Assembly: GCF_000686525.1 (NCBI RefSeq)
Contig: NZ_JMKT01000012.1
Coordinates: forward strand, 62,001 to 126,000
Origin: Desulfonatronovibrio hydrogenovorans DSM 9292
GTDB lineage: Bacteria; Desulfobacterota; Desulfovibrionia; Desulfovibrionales; Desulfonatronovibrionaceae
Direction of reading: 5' to 3'
DNA length: 64,000 nt
Part shown: positions 14,552 to 53,360 of the stretch, piece by piece
How positions within the stretch are numbered: position 1 is the stretch's first letter
Layout: every line of letters starts with the position of its first letter
Made by a program: the position numbers and the translations under genes
Notes under the pieces: generated by a model
The model's input: the letters and a program-made list of their open reading frames with translations, nothing else
Told to the model about the DNA's origin: nothing
Databases searched by the model: none

Positions 14552-14867
14552 GGTTCAGGGGTATTGTCTTGACTTGGGAACGGGTCGCCACTTAAAAAAT
14601 CAACATTAAGGCCTGGATCACAGCCTGGCTCAAAGGTGATTTTTTCGGAGTAGTTGAATTTCTTTTAGAAGTTACCCTGATTTTTTCCCTGGAATTATCA
14701 GACATTTTTATATAACTAAAACATTCCTGCCAAAAATCAAATCAATCTGTTTTTTTGATTTCAGGTTTTTTTCGAGCACTGTTACGGTAGATGGAATTAA
14801 TAACAGTCATCGGCTGGTCCAGTCTGGATAAGGGACAATCAGCCATAGCCCTTTTAAGAGGATGTAC
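14552..14867. other. Intergenic region between htpX and nrdJ
   Basis: About 315 AT-rich bases between divergent genes. It has several T-runs and a weak AAATCAA/TTGATTT hairpin near 14737-14763. I looked for a cobalamin riboswitch B12 box and for tandem NrdR boxes and found neither convincingly. Promoters for both flanking genes must lie here, but I cannot pick them. Confidence 0.35.
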
Positions 14868-17105
14868 ATGAAACCCAGCAAGATGCCCCAGGATACGGTT
14901 GAACCTGTTATAAGCGACAATGCCAGAACTGTCTTGACCAAACGATATCTGCGGAAAGGAGAGGACGGACAGCCTGTCGAGGATTTCAGGGCCATGTTCT
15001 GGAGAGTTGCTTCCAGCATTGCCAATGAGGAAAAAAAATATAAAAAATCAAGATATAAGGCAGATGAGCTGGCTGGAATTTTTTATACCCTCATGACCGA
15101 GTACCGCTTTCTGCCCAATTCCCCGACCCTGATGAACGCCGGAACAGACCTGGGCCAGCTGGCCGCTTGTTTTGTCCTTCCGGTGGGGGACTCCATGGAG
15201 GAAATTTTCGATGCCATAAAGCATGCAGCCCTTATTCATAAATCTGGAGGCGGGACAGGCTTTTCCTTTTCCAGGCTGCGGCCCAAGGACAGCCGGGTGG
15301 GCTCCACCGGGGGAATTGCCTCAGGTCCCATCTCTTTTTTAAGGATCTTCAACACCGCCACTGAGCAGGTCAAGCAGGGAGGCACCCGTCGCGGAGCCAA
15401 CATGGGAATAATGAGGGTGGATCATCCGGATATCATCGATTTTATCCGGGCCAAGGAAAGGGATGGAGAGCTGAACAACTTCAACCTGTCCATCGCCCTG
15501 ACTGAAGAGTTTATGCAGGCAGTGGAGAATAATGAGGAATATGTACTGATCGCTCCGCATACCAAAAAAGAGAAGGGAAGGCTCAAAGCAGTTGAAGTAT
15601 TTTCTCTGCTGGTCCAGAAGGCCTGGGAGAGCGGTGATCCAGGGATAATATTTCTGGACCGGATCAACCGCGACAATCCCACCCCAGCCCAGGGCGAGAT
15701 TGAAAGCACAAATCCGTGCGGAGAACAGCCCTTGCTGCCTTATGAGGCCTGTAACCTGGGCTCCATCAATCTGGACAGGTTTTACGCCCCTGACTCTGAT
15801 GACGGCATCGACTGGGAAGCACTCAGGGATACGGTACATCTGAGTGTCCGATTCCTGGACAATGTCATTGATGCATCAAGGTATCCCTTGGACAAGATCA
15901 CCCAGATGGTGAACAAGAACCGGAAGATTGGCCTGGGAGTCATGGGCTGGGCTGACCTATTGTTTCAGCTGGAGATACCATACAACAGTCACAAGGCTTT
16001 GAAGCTGGCGGAAAAAGTCATGGGCTTTATCCAGAATGAGTCCAAGTCGGCTTCCAAGCTCCTGGCCGAGGAAAGAGGGCCCTTTCCGGCCTACAACGAG
16101 TCGGTCTATGCCAGGCAGAATCTCGGGCCTTTCCGGAATGCCACCACCACCACTATTGCTCCCACCGGGACCCTGTCCATTATAGCCGGGTGTTCTTCCG
16201 GAGTTGAACCACTCTTTGCCCTGAGCTTTGTTCGCCAGGTCATGGACGGGGAAAGGCTTGCAGAAGTTAATCCCCACCTGGAGGAGGCCCTGAAAAAGAG
16301 CCGGAGTCACAGCCCCAAGCTTATGGAGGAGATCAGTCAGAAAGGCAGCATCAGCAGGATGGACTTTCTGAATGAGAATCTGCGGGAAGTGTATGTTACT
16401 GCCATGGATATTGAGCCGGAATATCACCTTAAAATGCAGGCTGCATTTCAGAGGTACACGGACAACGCTGTATCCAAGACAGTCAATCTGCCCCATGAGG
16501 CAACCAAGGAGGACATCTGGGATATCTACTGGATGGCCTATGAGCTGGGATGCAAGGGAGTAACGGTCTATCGTGACGGGTGCAAAAGCTCCCAGGTCCT
16601 GTGTACCGGCGACGGTGAAAAGGCCAGCCAGGAGAAAAAGGAAGGCCGGCTGAGTGTTCAGGAGCGGCCGGAGGTGGTTTACGGCTTTACCCAGAAGGTC
16701 AGGACTGGTCTTGGAGAGCTTTACCTGACTGTCAACGAGGTTGATGGCAGGCCTTTTGAGGTGTTCGCTACCATAGGCAGGTCAGGCCGATCCATTACTG
16801 CCAAGGCTGAAGCCATTGGCAGGCTGGTCTCCTTGGCCCTCAGGTCGGGCATAGCAGTAGAGGATGTTGTCAAGCAGATCAAGGGAATAGGAGGAGAGCA
16901 TCCGGTCTTCCAGAAAAAAGGACTGCTGCTGTCCATACCCGATGCAGTGGGCTGGGTTTTGGAAAACAGGTATATGCAGGGAACCAAAACCGTCGGCAGC
17001 CATGCAGGGCTGAGCCGTCCTTCCTGCCCTGACTGCGGCAGCGAGCTGGTCTTTCAGGAAGGATGTTTTGTCTGTTCTTCCTGCGGCTACACCAAATGCG
17101 GATAG
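14868..17105 (+). CDS. nrdJ: Adenosylcobalamin-dependent (class II) ribonucleotide reductase
   Basis: Reduces ribonucleotides to deoxyribonucleotides using B12 and works with or without oxygen. It is 745 residues long. Motifs include SPTLMNAG, the substrate-site stretch NPCGEQPLLPYEACNLGSINL (split here), the TTIAPTGTLSII loop, and a C-terminal zinc-ribbon-like CPDCGSEL..CSSCGYTKCG that supplies the reducing cysteines. AAGAGG at 14856-14861 sits six bases before the ATG at 14868, so I prefer it over the ATG at 14862. The histidine kinase gene begins 11 bases after the stop codon. Confidence 0.95.
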   Translation: MKPSKMPQDTVEPVISDNARTVLTKRYLRKGEDGQPVEDFRAMFWRVASSIANEEKKYKKSRYKADELAGIFYTLMTEYRFLPNSPTLMNAGTDLGQLAACFVLPVGDSMEEIFDAIKHAALIHKSGGGTGFSFSRLRPKDSRVGSTGGIASGPISFLRIFNTATEQVKQGGTRRGANMGIMRVDHPDIIDFIRAKERDGELNNFNLSIALTEEFMQAVENNEEYVLIAPHTKKEKGRLKAVEVFSLLVQKAWESGDPGIIFLDRINRDNPTPAQGEIESTNPCGEQPLLPYEACNLGSINLDRFYAPDSDDGIDWEALRDTVHLSVRFLDNVIDASRYPLDKITQMVNKNRKIGLGVMGWADLLFQLEIPYNSHKALKLAEKVMGFIQNESKSASKLLAEERGPFPAYNESVYARQNLGPFRNATTTTIAPTGTLSIIAGCSSGVEPLFALSFVRQVMDGERLAEVNPHLEEALKKSRSHSPKLMEEISQKGSISRMDFLNENLREVYVTAMDIEPEYHLKMQAAFQRYTDNAVSKTVNLPHEATKEDIWDIYWMAYELGCKGVTVYRDGCKSSQVLCTGDGEKASQEKKEGRLSVQERPEVVYGFTQKVRTGLGELYLTVNEVDGRPFEVFATIGRSGRSITAKAEAIGRLVSLALRSGIAVEDVVKQIKGIGGEHPVFQKKGLLLSIPDAVGWVLENRYMQGTKTVGSHAGLSRPSCPDCGSELVFQEGCFVCSSCGYTKCG

Positions 17106-17116
17106 TGCCTGGCAAG

Positions 17117-18433
17117 ATGCGGATGATACACAATAACGATTCTTGGGCATCCCGGGACATGCAGCTGGTGGTCAGGGTTATCAACTTGCTGGCTGACAGG
17201 GGCATGACCTTGCAGCAGAAGCTCGACATGAGCCTCAAGATGATTCTTGAGGGAATCGGGGCTTTGAACGGGTCCATTATGATCATTGACCAGACTGAGG
17301 CCAAGCTGAAGGTCTGGGCTGCCACAAACAAGGACATTATTTGCAAGAAACAGCCGGTCAGCGAGGAGTCCATTTCAGGCTGCGTTTTTTTGAGAAATGA
17401 ACCGATCTTTATTAGAGACATAAACAAACATCCTGACTTTGCTCCCAAAGCAAGGCCCGACAACTACCGGACCAGTTCTCTCATCTGCGTACCCCTTGCA
17501 ACAACAGGTGAAGATAAGCCGTTCGGGGTGATCAATGTTTCAGACCGTAACGACAGTACCTGGTTCAGCAGTCAGGATTTTGCCCTGCTCATGGACTATG
17601 CGGCCTGGATTTCTCCTCTTCTGGAGAATACCTTCCTGGTTGAGGATCTGGCCAGGGAAAAGGAAAGGTACAAACGCCTGAGTTACGAACTGGAAATCAA
17701 ACAGAAGGAACTCATGATCTCCACTTCAGAACGGTCGGAACTCATTCAGATGGTGGTCCATGATTTCAAGAGTCCCTTGTCAGCGGTAATATCCAACCTG
17801 GATCTCCTGTCCTATATGGGGTTAAGCCAGGAACAGCAGCCAGTGGTCAAAACAGCTGTGGACGGCTCTAAAAAACTTCTGGAGATGATCAACGAGTTTC
17901 TTGACGTGGCCAGGCTTGATCACTGGCAGGAAACCGGTGAACTCAAGGATATATCTCTGATGGGAGTGGTCAAGGAAGAGTTGGAAGAAGTCTTTCCAGT
18001 GGCCAGGAAAAAGAAAATTTTTCTGGAGGTGGCTGAAGTTGAAGACGTTGTTGTCCACGCTCATGAAAACCTGTTGCAGCATCTGGTGAAGAATCTTCTG
18101 TCCAATGCTGTCAAGTATACTCCGGACAATGGAGCAGTCCGCATCTACTGGACGGTGAAAAAGGCCAGGAGGTTGACGGACAGGTGCACCAGGCTGGTTA
18201 CCTTGTGTGTAGAAGACAGCGGTCCTGGAGTGCCTGAAGAGATGAAAAAAAGCATATTTGACCGGTTCACCAGGGTGAAAAGGGACCGGCATATTCAGGG
18301 GTCAGGCGTGGGTCTGTTCATCTGCAACCGTATAGCCACCATCATGGGCGGGAAAATATGGGTCGAGGATGTCCTGTCCGGAGGCAGCAGATTTTGTGTG
18401 ACCATGTTTGCACCGGAGGACGGCTGTGCTTAA
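17117..18433 (+). CDS. GAF-domain sensor histidine kinase
   Basis: A soluble 438-residue kinase. A GAF sensor domain (about 25-170) is followed by a charged coiled coil (about 180-212), a HisKA domain with phospho-acceptor His215 in MVVHDFKSPL, and an HATPase_c domain (N box HLVKNLLSNAVKYTP, G1 DSGPGVP, G2 GSGVGLFIC). No membrane helix is seen, so the signal is cytoplasmic. I chose the ATG at 17117; an in-frame earlier start would overlap nrdJ. The GTG of the response regulator lies inside its 3' end, so the two are translationally coupled and probably cognate. Confidence 0.88.
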   Translation: MRMIHNNDSWASRDMQLVVRVINLLADRGMTLQQKLDMSLKMILEGIGALNGSIMIIDQTEAKLKVWAATNKDIICKKQPVSEESISGCVFLRNEPIFIRDINKHPDFAPKARPDNYRTSSLICVPLATTGEDKPFGVINVSDRNDSTWFSSQDFALLMDYAAWISPLLENTFLVEDLAREKERYKRLSYELEIKQKELMISTSERSELIQMVVHDFKSPLSAVISNLDLLSYMGLSQEQQPVVKTAVDGSKKLLEMINEFLDVARLDHWQETGELKDISLMGVVKEELEEVFPVARKKKIFLEVAEVEDVVVHAHENLLQHLVKNLLSNAVKYTPDNGAVRIYWTVKKARRLTDRCTRLVTLCVEDSGPGVPEEMKKSIFDRFTRVKRDRHIQGSGVGLFICNRIATIMGGKIWVEDVLSGGSRFCVTMFAPEDGCA

Positions 18434-19598
18434 TGGTGATCTTCATGTCCTGGTGGTGGACGACATCGGGCCGGCTAGACAGACCGTGGTCAATATCCTC
18501 CGTGTCCTGGGCTGTAAAAATACAGTGGAAGCTGGAAACGGTCATGAGGCTTGGGAAATCCTGAGCCAGAGAAATGATATCGGTCTGGTGATATCGGACT
18601 GGAAAATGCCCAGGATGAACGGGATAGATTTGCTGATCAGAGTGCGGGAGAACCAGCAGACCAAGAATCTTCCCTTTTTCCTGGTAACTTCCAAGAATGA
18701 GTCCGAAGATGTTGCTCTGGCATCGGACTGGGGGGTGAACGGCTACATGGTCAAGCCTTTGAGCCTGGCTGTCCTCAGAGAAAAGCTGGAAAGCCTGGCC
18801 GAAGATACCCCGGGCCGGATTTTGAATCAGGTTTTGAGTCAGTGTCGGGAAAAGTACTATCAGGGACATTTTGACCAGGCAGAAGAGCTTCTGACCGACC
18901 TTCTGAAAAAGCAGCCTGTACTGGAGTCCAGGGTGTTGTATGAGCTGGGCCAGGTTAATGAAATGCAGGGCAAGGACAAAGAAGCTGAAGAATATGCTGA
19001 CAGGGCCATATCCCTTAACCCGGACATGTCCAGGGCCTGGTTCTTAAAGGCCAGAATACTGGGCAGACGCAATAACTGGAAGGAGGCCCTGGGCTGGATT
19101 GAAAAGGCGGTCCGCATCAGTCCTCATAACAACGAATATCTTCTGTTCAGGGGGGAAGCATTTCTCAAGCTCAAGGATTTTGCCAAAGCCAAGGCAAGCT
19201 ATATTACGGCCCTGAACAATGCGCCCAAGGATGATGAACTCAAGCAGACCATCTGGAATACCTATCTGAGTCATGGTTACGTAGATCAGGTCCAGAAGGA
19301 CCTGGGCGCGGTCCTGTATGAATCTCTGACTGCAGATACCCTGAATAACCTGGCCGTGGCTCTAAGAAAGGGGGGGCTGAACAAAGAGGCCATTTTGGTT
19401 TACAAGCAGGCCCTTAGAAAGGAAAAGAACAATCCCAAGATACTTTACAACGCTGCAGTTGCCCAGCTTAAGGCAGGAAGTTCAGATGTTGCTGAAAGAT
19501 ATCTGCAAAAGGCCCTGGAGGTCAGGCCTGACTTTACCGAGGCCAGGGAGTTGATGAGCACGATTAACAGTGAATACGGCGGATCAGAAGGTAAATGA
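18426..19598 (+). CDS. CheY-like response regulator with TPR repeats
   Basis: A 390-residue protein with an N-terminal receiver domain (about 6-125: acidic pair at 12-13, phospho-acceptor Asp58 in SDWKMP, conserved Lys in MVKPLS). It is followed by about six tetratricopeptide repeats (about 140-385). There is no DNA-binding domain, so output is by protein-protein contact. GGAGGA at 18414-18419 fixes the start at the GTG at 18426, inside the kinase gene. Its TGA overlaps the ftsE ATG (ATGA). Kinase, regulator and FtsEX are thus one coupled unit, and the TPR domain could recruit a division or envelope partner. Confidence 0.85.
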   Translation: MLNGDLHVLVVDDIGPARQTVVNILRVLGCKNTVEAGNGHEAWEILSQRNDIGLVISDWKMPRMNGIDLLIRVRENQQTKNLPFFLVTSKNESEDVALASDWGVNGYMVKPLSLAVLREKLESLAEDTPGRILNQVLSQCREKYYQGHFDQAEELLTDLLKKQPVLESRVLYELGQVNEMQGKDKEAEEYADRAISLNPDMSRAWFLKARILGRRNNWKEALGWIEKAVRISPHNNEYLLFRGEAFLKLKDFAKAKASYITALNNAPKDDELKQTIWNTYLSHGYVDQVQKDLGAVLYESLTADTLNNLAVALRKGGLNKEAILVYKQALRKEKNNPKILYNAAVAQLKAGSSDVAERYLQKALEVRPDFTEARELMSTINSEYGGSEGK

Positions 19599-20278
19599 TC
19601 AATATTAAATATCTTTCCCACTCCTTTGGCCGTTACTGGGCCTTGAAAAACATCAGCTTCTCCCTGGACAAGGGGGACTTTCTGTTTCTCACAGGACCGT
19701 CAGGGGCCGGCAAGACTACATTGATGCGGCTTTTGCACGGAAGTCTGCCCCTGCAAAGGGGGATGGTCAGCATTGCAGGCTTTGATCTCAAGTCCATGCC
19801 CTTAAGAAAGCTGCATCTGCTCAGACGGCAGGTGTCCATAGTATTCCAGGATTTTCGGATTCTGCCTGATCGGACGGTCTGGGACAATGTGGCCCTCCCG
19901 CTTCTGGTCAGGGGTATGGTCAAAAGCCAGATACAGAAAAGAGTCAGGGCTGTGCTGAGGAGCCTGCGGCTGGACAAGAAATCATGGTGTCTGTGCCGGG
20001 AAATATCCGGAGGTGAGCAGCAAAGGGTGGCAGTTGCCAGGGCTGTTGTGGTCAATCCAAAAGTACTTCTGGCAGACGAGCCCACCGGCAATCTGGACCG
20101 GAAGCTCGCCCTGCAGCTCCTGGAGGTATTCAGGCAGTTTCACATCCATGGAACTACGATTATTTTTGCAACTCATAACGAGGAACTCATTAAGAGTCAG
20201 CCCCAGGCCAAGATCCTTTGTTTGAAAGACGGGGGAATTGTTGATTCCAACTGGCCCCTGGAGGGAGTTGAGATATGA
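19595..20278 (+). CDS. ftsE: Cell division ATP-binding protein FtsE
   Basis: The 227-residue ATPase of the FtsEX complex, which couples septum formation to peptidoglycan hydrolase activation. It has Walker A GPSGAGKTT (about residues 34-42), a Q-loop (VSIVFQD), the ABC signature SGGEQQRVA and Walker B VLLADEPTGNLD. The length is typical (about 220). ATGA overlaps at both ends, with the TPR regulator upstream and ftsX downstream. Unlike many genomes, no ftsY is adjacent. Confidence 0.93.
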   Translation: MINIKYLSHSFGRYWALKNISFSLDKGDFLFLTGPSGAGKTTLMRLLHGSLPLQRGMVSIAGFDLKSMPLRKLHLLRRQVSIVFQDFRILPDRTVWDNVALPLLVRGMVKSQIQKRVRAVLRSLRLDKKSWCLCREISGGEQQRVAVARAVVVNPKVLLADEPTGNLDRKLALQLLEVFRQFHIHGTTIIFATHNEELIKSQPQAKILCLKDGGIVDSNWPLEGVEI

Positions 20279-21162
20279 GGGTGTTCCGGCAGCTTGCTGT
20301 TGAAGGTCTGCTTAACCTGGGGAGAAATAAGTGGGCCCAGGTATTTACCATGAGTGCCGTGACCTTTGTTTCTTTTCTGGCTGGTCTTTTTCTGCTTATT
20401 CTGTTTAATTTCAACCTGACTGTACAGGCCACTCAGGATTCTCTTCAATACCAGGTTTACTGGAGCAAGGGAACTGATCCAGAGCAGGTCCGGGAGCAGT
20501 GGTCTGAAATCAATTCATGGGATGTTATTTCTGTTAAGACCTTTACCCCGGAGCAGGCCCTGGAGGCCCTGATGGATTCCATGCCAGGAGGTTTTGACCC
20601 AGCTGGCATGGCCGGGGTGAACCCTCTGCCGTTCACGGCCCTGGTTGAGTTCTCTCTGACAGGGGAGCAGGCGGATGACCGGGCCGGCGAAATCCTTAAA
20701 AGGATTGAACAGTTTCCCGGTGTTGAGAGGGTCAGCTACAATCCCATGCAGATGGATCTGGCTAAAACCTGGCTCAGGGTGACCTCGGGAGTTTTCTGGC
20801 CGCTGATAGGTCTTATGCTGCTTATCACTGGACTGGTTGTGGCCAACACCCTCAAACTCAACCAGATCAACCGCAAGGAGGAGATAGAAATTCTTTCCCT
20901 TGTGGGTGCCAGTACAGGCTATATCCAGTTTCCGCTGCTCATCACCGGGGCTTTGCAGGGTCTGGGCGGGGGCACCCTGGCTGTTGTTCTGCTCAAGGCC
21001 ATTCACCTGATGGCCAAGGACCTGCTCTACTTTCCGCCGGTATGGATCAGGATTGAATTCTTTCCCCCGGTTTATGTGATATCCTTTCTGGCTGTATTGA
21101 CTGGAGTGGGGATCATGAGCAGCTTTCTGGCCGGGCAGAATCGAAAAGGTGGCCAAAAATGA
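20275..21162 (+). CDS. ftsX: Cell division membrane protein FtsX
   Basis: A 295-residue permease-like partner of FtsE. One N-terminal transmembrane helix (about 22-45) is followed by a periplasmic domain (about 46-160) and three C-terminal transmembrane helices (about 165-190, 215-245, 262-285), the four-helix FtsX topology. The periplasmic loop usually binds a peptidoglycan hydrolase activator; no such gene is in the window. It overlaps ftsE and the methyltransferase by four bases each. Confidence 0.92.
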   Translation: MRVFRQLAVEGLLNLGRNKWAQVFTMSAVTFVSFLAGLFLLILFNFNLTVQATQDSLQYQVYWSKGTDPEQVREQWSEINSWDVISVKTFTPEQALEALMDSMPGGFDPAGMAGVNPLPFTALVEFSLTGEQADDRAGEILKRIEQFPGVERVSYNPMQMDLAKTWLRVTSGVFWPLIGLMLLITGLVVANTLKLNQINRKEEIEILSLVGASTGYIQFPLLITGALQGLGGGTLAVVLLKAIHLMAKDLLYFPPVWIRIEFFPPVYVISFLAVLTGVGIMSSFLAGQNRKGGQK

Positions 21163-21824
21163 ACAGCCTGTCCGCCGGTCCCCAGAGCTTGGTAATTGAA
21201 GCGGCTGGCGAGAAGTGGCAGATCAAAAGGGCCGGAGATCTTGAAGAGCTTTGGAATGGGATGACCGGAAATAATCCTGATGATGAAGACCACATCCCAT
21301 ATTGGACAGAGGTCTGGCCTGCGTCCATGCTTTTAATGGAGCATATTTCTTCCCAGAAAAAGGCCCTGGCCGGAACCTGGTGTCTTGATGTGGGATGTGG
21401 TCTGGGTTTGACCGCCCTGGTGGGAAAGAGGGCTGGCGCCCGGGTCATGGCCATGGACCTGGAGTACGAGGCTCTGGGTTTTGCCCGGCAGAACGGTCGG
21501 ATTAACGGTGTCCAGGAACTGGATCTGATCCAGGCGGACTGGAGGCAGCCTCCATTCAAAGCCGGTGGATTCGATTATATCTGGGCTGCTGATGTTCTTT
21601 ACGAGTCAAGATTTGCCCAGCCCCTGGTCCGCCTTCTGACCCTTTGTCTGAAAAAAGATGGCAGGATATGGATAGCGGATCCCCAACGAAACATTTCCAA
21701 AGCTGTCTGGTCCATTTTTATTAACAGCGGGTTTAAGCTTAAAGAGATCAGAAAAGACCGGGTCGGCATCGGTCCGCACCGGGCCGAAGTCAGGCTGATG
21801 GAACTTGTCTTTGACCAATTTTGA
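21159..21824 (+). CDS. Class I SAM-dependent methyltransferase (METTL20/PrmA-like)
   Basis: A 221-residue seven-beta-strand methyltransferase. The SAM-binding motif I is LDVGCGLGLTAL (about residues 75-86), with an acidic motif II (MAMDLEYEAL) and a post-II ADVLYE. The N-terminal DEDHIPYWTEVWPAS resembles protein-lysine methyltransferases of the ETF-beta/METTL20 group, so a protein substrate is likely. Its ATG overlaps ftsX, tying it to the division operon. Whether it modifies FtsEX or another protein is unknown. Confidence 0.75.
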   Translation: MNSLSAGPQSLVIEAAGEKWQIKRAGDLEELWNGMTGNNPDDEDHIPYWTEVWPASMLLMEHISSQKKALAGTWCLDVGCGLGLTALVGKRAGARVMAMDLEYEALGFARQNGRINGVQELDLIQADWRQPPFKAGGFDYIWAADVLYESRFAQPLVRLLTLCLKKDGRIWIADPQRNISKAVWSIFINSGFKLKEIRKDRVGIGPHRAEVRLMELVFDQF

Positions 21825-53274: not shown

Positions 53275-53360
53275 GCCGAAGTGGTGGAACTGGTAGACAC
53301 GCTATCTTGAGGGGGTAGTGGGCCACGCCCGTGGGGGTTCGAGTCCCCCCTTCGGCACCA
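53275..53360 (+). tRNA. tRNA-Leu (anticodon GAG)
   Basis: A class II tRNA. The acceptor GCCGAAG pairs with CTTCGGC, the discriminator is A and CCA is encoded. The anticodon stem CTATC/GGTAG holds the loop TTGAGGG, giving anticodon GAG (reads CUC and CUU). There is a long variable arm and the T arm GGGGGTTCGAGTCCCCC. Confidence 0.95.

Follow-up and report, generated by a model that had tools for sequence, protein, structure and literature searches.

A two-component pair in the ftsEX gene cluster of Desulfonatronovibrio hydrogenovorans: an old but dispensable candidate input to cell separation

What is a two-component signalling pair doing among genes for cell separation? The question is raised by a stretch of 64,000 nucleotides (nt) from Desulfonatronovibrio hydrogenovorans DSM 9292 (contig NZ_JMKT01000012.1, positions 62,001 to 126,000; hereafter the window), in which genes for a histidine kinase and for a receiver protein with a tetratricopeptide repeat (TPR) output stand immediately upstream of ftsE and ftsX. 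To our knowledge, what times FtsEX activity from within the cytoplasm is an open question. Our answer for this locus, a tentative one held at somewhat less than even confidence, is that the pair is an old, optional two-component cassette in an nrdJ-ftsEX operon, which would most likely modulate FtsEX through TPR contacts.

Five genes (kinase, regulator, ftsE, ftsX and a methyltransferase gene) run head to tail on the forward strand and overlap by 8, 4, 4 and 4 nt. Their starts, stops and overlaps are all as described in an earlier note made from the letters of the window (the original prediction), and the overlaps suggest that the genes are translationally coupled. Absent from that note is nrdJ, which stops 11 nt ahead of the kinase gene. 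The operon is therefore probably longer than five genes, with nrdJ as its probable first gene, and nrdJ, the kinase, the regulator, ftsE and ftsX may well be co-transcribed.

The strongest support for a connection with FtsEX is that the place beside ftsEX recurs, including in two genomes (G019 and G013) with no nrdJ in the approximately 1.5-1.9 kilobases fetched upstream of the kinase (G and L numbers are our labels for genomes and loci, g and f numbers for genera and families). An order-wide sample of 297 Desulfovibrionales genomes yielded orthologues of the regulator (expectation value, E, <= 1e-50) in 26. In 20 of the 26, from two families, the regulator lies directly upstream of ftsE: 15 belong to the first sample (G000, G003, G007, G008, G010, G013, G019, G028, G032, G036, G040, G044, G052, G055 and G060) and five were added later (G062, G064, G066, G076 and G080). 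The 26 include G004, which is split over two contigs, G057, which has many stops, and G076, in which the contig ends within the regulator and leaves the kinase out of view. The order is thus conserved in related genomes rather than unique to this one. It is not a matter of chance: it recurs on the same strand in 19 further genomes and is tightly spaced in the 14 loci measured.

Of 61 genomes, 53 gave an FtsX match, counting that of the window, and the surroundings of ftsX were fetched for the other 52; the pair lies upstream of ftsE in 14 of these loci, in addition to the window. Kinase and regulator are -11 to +1 nt apart in all 14 loci measured (starts chosen by script). The distance from regulator to ftsE is -8 to +24 nt in 12 of these and 77 and 207 nt in the remaining two. 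The regulators of family f3 are only 37-41% identical to that of the window. A scan of contigs with the regulator returned mainly plain CheY proteins; among the 80 matches listed, L134-L136 extend over nearly the whole length, and one of these, a Desulfomicrobium match (L136), has the linked order too. In a class-wide sample 22 of 297 genomes match, all of them from this order. Receiver candidates were scored in part for each genome (up to 31 in the counts for f1, the window's family, six in the order-wide and four in the phylum search), so absence here means not detected.

What kind of signalling could the pair perform? The kinase has no stretch of 19 residues above the hydropathy threshold for membrane segments. 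It carries the phosphoacceptor histidine of its class, and His215 is conserved in 20 of 20 aligned orthologues. The receiver has the acidic pocket, aspartate, threonine or serine, and lysine of a two-component receiver, with D13, D58, T88 and K110 invariant in 19 of 19. Because these residues and His215 are invariant, phosphotransfer from kinase to receiver is very probable; the numbering of His215 and Asp58 in the original prediction is right, and the phosphotransfer residues are intact. Pfam places Response_reg at 14-127, counted from a TTG at 18408 that lies 6 residues before the GTG at 18426. At E <= 0.001 the only Pfam matches in the regulator are to receiver and TPR-like repeat families, with no DNA-binding domain among them, which bears out the original prediction on this point. 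The regulator therefore lacks the DNA-binding output of transcriptional response regulators of the OmpR, NarL and NtrC types. A structure predicted from four sequences has a receiver followed by a repeat array of 15 helices (mean predicted local distance difference test, pLDDT, 82.8; predicted template modelling score 0.67), with pLDDT of just 52-76 over most of the receiver.

The presumed target appears to be an ordinary FtsEX. FtsE scores 268.6 bits against TIGR02673, for which the equivalog cut-off is 264.85, and its Walker A and B motifs are intact. FtsX matches the Pfam FtsX permease and FtsX_ECD families above their cut-offs and has four membrane segments; its score against the NCBIfam FtsX_Gneg equivalog is below the cut-off (143.4 versus 255 bits). 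It is the single ftsX match in a genome of 2.94 megabases. The FtsEX-EnvC-amidase route is a Gram-negative pathway, and its other members seem to be encoded elsewhere in this genome. Seven M23 stretches were found, one of them in an EnvC-like protein of 386 residues, the gene for which is followed by an S41 peptidase gene and then by a divergent polysaccharide deacetylase gene. Both metal-binding motifs (H...D and H.H) are missing from the EnvC-like M23 and present in the other 6 of 6, each read on its own strand, as would be expected of an EnvC-type activator, and the genome has one Amidase_3 gene. FtsE motifs, an FtsX with an extracellular domain, a degenerate EnvC-like M23 and one amidase are therefore shared with the known pathway, from which the window differs in that its ftsEX operon also holds a kinase and a receiver-TPR gene. 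With the usual partners of FtsEX encoded elsewhere, the pair would be an added input.

How might such an input work? The soluble GAF kinase would sense a cytoplasmic signal and autophosphorylate at His215, before handing the phosphate to the receiver at Asp58. In response, the TPR tail would bind or release a protein partner, with FtsEX on its cytosolic side (FtsE or the FtsX tails) as the leading candidate. Depending on its state, the regulator could raise or lower the extent to which FtsEX activates the EnvC-like protein and the amidase, both encoded elsewhere. The genes, their overlaps, the phosphosites, the recurring order and the absence or displacement of the pair in some relatives make up a genetic link; the contact between TPR and FtsEX, and the direction of its effect, are what we infer from it. 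Since FtsEX persists in relatives in which no cassette was detected, the cassette would be a modulator rather than a required part.

Is there a precedent? WalR is a DNA-binding regulator that acts on transcription, so the output of WalRK differs from the TPR output of the window's regulator. The likeness lies in the pathway: in the available parts of two papers on WalRK and FtsEX-CwlO of Bacillus subtilis, a two-component system is likewise tied to wall hydrolysis and FtsEX drives a hydrolase (PMC7299342, PMC6705773). No publication linking a receiver-TPR protein, or such a pair, to FtsEX was found in the literature searched, which left most subscription journals outside. The available part of PMC3333781 has two mentions of TPR, both in figure legends, and none of FtsE or FtsX.

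Three observations weigh most heavily against a role with FtsEX: lineages in which the pair is unlinked, genomes in which none was detected, and homologues outside the order that are not linked either. A dedicated FtsEX regulator would be expected always to sit beside ftsEX, and this one is away from it in 6 of 26 genomes (G004, G006, G009, G023, G031 and G057). All six unlinked regulators have a kinase match just upstream, which is truncated at the end of the contig in G031 and interrupted by stops in G057. In G004 and G009 a separate contig has nrdJ and ftsE side by side without the pair in between, which shows that the pair is truly away from ftsEX. The second point concerns f1, in which 17 genomes bear ftsX. 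The pair is linked in six of these and elsewhere in three, and no orthologue was detected in the other eight (G001, G002, G005, G012 and G014-G017), the assemblies of which are 66-97% complete and had their receiver candidates scored in part.

The third point comes from the rest of the phylum. A search there put 147 of 395 genomes above threshold, mostly through plain receiver domains. Outside the window's genome, 36 matches cover at least 280 model positions at E <= 1e-47, and 20 of the 36 (not strictly the best 20) were fetched. The regulator was located by tblastn in 20 of 20 fetched loci, all outside the order, and a kinase match (E <= 1e-20) adjoins it in nine; L268 and L269 start almost at the contig end, which leaves their upstream neighbours out of view. 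These regulators have the same domain order as the window's, often with a histidine kinase. Unlike the window's, none of the 20 stands beside ftsEX: there is no FtsX match in these loci, and the FtsE-like matches are weak, general ABC ones (28-31% identity). Judged by such comparisons, the pair belongs to a known and general type, and its FtsEX address is seen solely in this order.

Could part of the regulator itself mark an FtsEX partner? Residues 263-310 looked promising, and the predicted structure places a short helix (286-293) and a loop ahead of 303 within them. The 19 columns compared there were selected for conservation in the ftsEX-linked set, so their match of 0.84-1.00 in 14 of 15 linked sequences holds by construction. 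Across 18 aligned homologues outside the order the match is 0.05-0.37, as against 0.54-0.80 for 35 other columns of the TPR part selected in the same way. (The alignment omits L266, L267 and G004.) Linkage to ftsEX is not what these values follow, and here too the favoured reading loses ground: linked G019 reaches 0.53, whereas the unlinked G023 and G031 (genus g10) reach 0.84 and 0.79 and the unlinked G006 and G009 (genus g2) 0.58. The stretch was dropped as a marker of FtsEX binding and is not used as evidence here, since it tracks clade rather than linkage and its columns were selected on linked sequences. It is best described as a mark of the clade that could also serve as a binding surface.

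How did the pair come to be unlinked? A tree of kinase plus regulator and one of FtsE plus FtsX agree in part: genus g10 of family f2 falls next to genus g3 of f1 in both, and G004 groups inside its own genus. The trees conflict for g2, in which FtsEX groups with g1 and the unlinked pair with G019 of f3 (support 0.87, on a long branch), so transfer of the pair is possible there. Both trees come from one quick method; G057 was omitted from them and G013 is missing from the FtsE plus FtsX tree. The pattern is consistent with an ancestor in which the pair was linked, mostly vertical inheritance from it and several losses, and the three unlinked lineages (G004, genus g2 and genus g10) may have arisen through move or transfer. 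In L120, L121, L124 and L125, from two genera, the unlinked pair stands beside EAL-HDOD or HDOD genes, on differing sides.

What if the partner is not FtsEX at all? The pair could be a general-purpose two-component module with some other partner (e.g., a cyclic di-GMP, motility or polarity protein), its location serving co-expression with growth and division genes. This is a substantial possibility, ranking second in our judgement. The unlinked copies retain kinase and regulator together and not ftsEX. In G006 and G009 the pair is followed on its 3' side by a gene for an EAL-HDOD protein. G004 has, over two contigs, an HDOD frame with a partial EAL match below cut-off immediately upstream and an HDOD gene immediately downstream. 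The homologues outside the order occur in varied contexts, L260 beside flhF/flhG/fliA-like genes (named by eye). What such a module would not predict is the same place in 20 of 26 genomes, nearly overlapping in most of the loci measured, two of these genomes having no nrdJ found upstream.

Another possibility is that the receiver-TPR protein mainly serves as a phosphate sink or inhibitor for its own kinase or for a different two-component system. VieB of Vibrio cholerae, a receiver with a TPR-like output that acts in this way, has the same layout; its gene, unlike the window's, is not known to be linked to ftsEX, and no VieB paper was found in the literature searched. The five-gene cluster holds no second response regulator and the recurring place beside ftsEX would stay unexplained, which leaves this idea improbable. 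Least probable of all is that the pair tunes nucleotide supply with NrdJ as its target: of the 15 linked loci in the first sample, 13 do have nrdJ ahead of the pair, but the idea is lowered by G019 and G013, which keep the pair with ftsEX and no nrdJ found upstream, by the seven fetched loci (six genomes) with an unlinked pair, none of which shows nrdJ, and by the fact that nrdJ, upstream of ftsE in 34 of the 52 fetched loci with or without the pair, adjoins ftsE with no pair between in 21 of those 34.

Where does this leave modulation of FtsEX by an optional cassette? The original prediction proposed phosphorylation-dependent control of septal wall hydrolysis, a reading that is plausible and supported in part. 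The recurring order, the intact phosphosites and the lack of a DNA-binding domain speak for such control; dedicated control is weakened by the 6 of 26 regulators located away from ftsEX, the 8 of 17 ftsX-bearing f1 genomes without a detected one and the 0 of 20 linked outside the order. The more specific proposal, a non-transcriptional phospho-switch in which direct TPR contact with FtsEX gates septal wall hydrolysis, old in one order of sulfate reducers and repeatedly lost or moved, is rather unlikely as a whole.

The methyltransferase (METHYLTRANSFERASE), which the original prediction suggested may modify a partner, was rejected as part of the unit. Whether the pair is linked, elsewhere or undetected, its gene comes after ftsX in 6 of 6 g1 genomes and in the five g2 genomes with contigs that reach that far (G015 and G016 have contigs that stop within ftsX). 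The pair-bearing ftsX loci of genera g3 and g4 and family f3 yielded no such gene. It thus accompanies ftsX and not the pair, staying in relatives without the pair and missing from other pair-bearing genera, and this independence leaves no ground for tying it to the signalling pair.

FtsEX itself varies among the sampled genomes. FtsX is 22-27% identical to the window's in L049, L050 and L080 (g3) and in L047 and L048 (g10); FtsE in g3 is 63-64% identical despite the divergent FtsX. None of the seven genomes of genus g12 in family f5 (G026, G030, G034, G038, G042, G050 and G053, all listed as 100% complete) has an FtsX match at E <= 1e-3 or an FtsE above the TIGR02673 cut-off (best 201.8 bits). 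FtsEX seems to be lost or very divergent there, although the window's own FtsE clears that cut-off narrowly.

The features of the cluster are collected in Table 1. No RNA element or riboswitch was found at the operon in an Rfam search of the window at gathering scores; the sole matches are two transfer RNA genes elsewhere, at 749-829 on the reverse and 53275-53357 on the forward strand. Promoter and terminator scans gave six and nine hits, near the shuffle means of 4.8 and 8.2, and are therefore uninformative.

Table 1. Positions in the window of the ftsEX cluster and of elements within it.
Feature	Position	Strand	Details
nrdJ, B12-dependent ribonucleotide reductase	14862..17105	+	NCBIfam PRK08665, 1207.6 bits, above cut-off
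GAF histidine kinase, cytoplasmic, 438 residues	17117..18433	+	ATG to TAA; Pfam GAF, HisKA, HATPase_c; His215
GGAGG, Shine-Dalgarno-like, within kinase gene ahead of GTG 18426	18416..18420	+	read from sequence
Receiver-TPR response regulator, 390 residues	18426..19598	+	GTG to TGA; Response_reg and TPRs; Asp58
Regulator residues 263-310, TPR part	19212..19355	+	19 columns kept in the order's clade, poor match outside the order
ftsE, FtsEX ATPase	19595..20278	+	ATG; TIGR02673; Walker A GPSGAGKTT, signature SGGEQQR, Walker B LLADEPT
ftsX	20275..21162	+	ATG; Pfam FtsX and FtsX_ECD; four hydrophobic segments by hydropathy, extracellular domain
Class I S-adenosylmethionine methyltransferase	21159..21824	+	ATG; Pfam Methyltransf_11/16

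The arrangement is suggestive of an old but dispensable signal input to cell separation. If the pair proves to be unconnected to FtsEX, it would be a caution against inferring function from operon overlap alone. If the favoured reading is true, a phosphorelay with a protein-contact output, long kept in the FtsEX operon, would be a testable cytoplasmic input to FtsEX.

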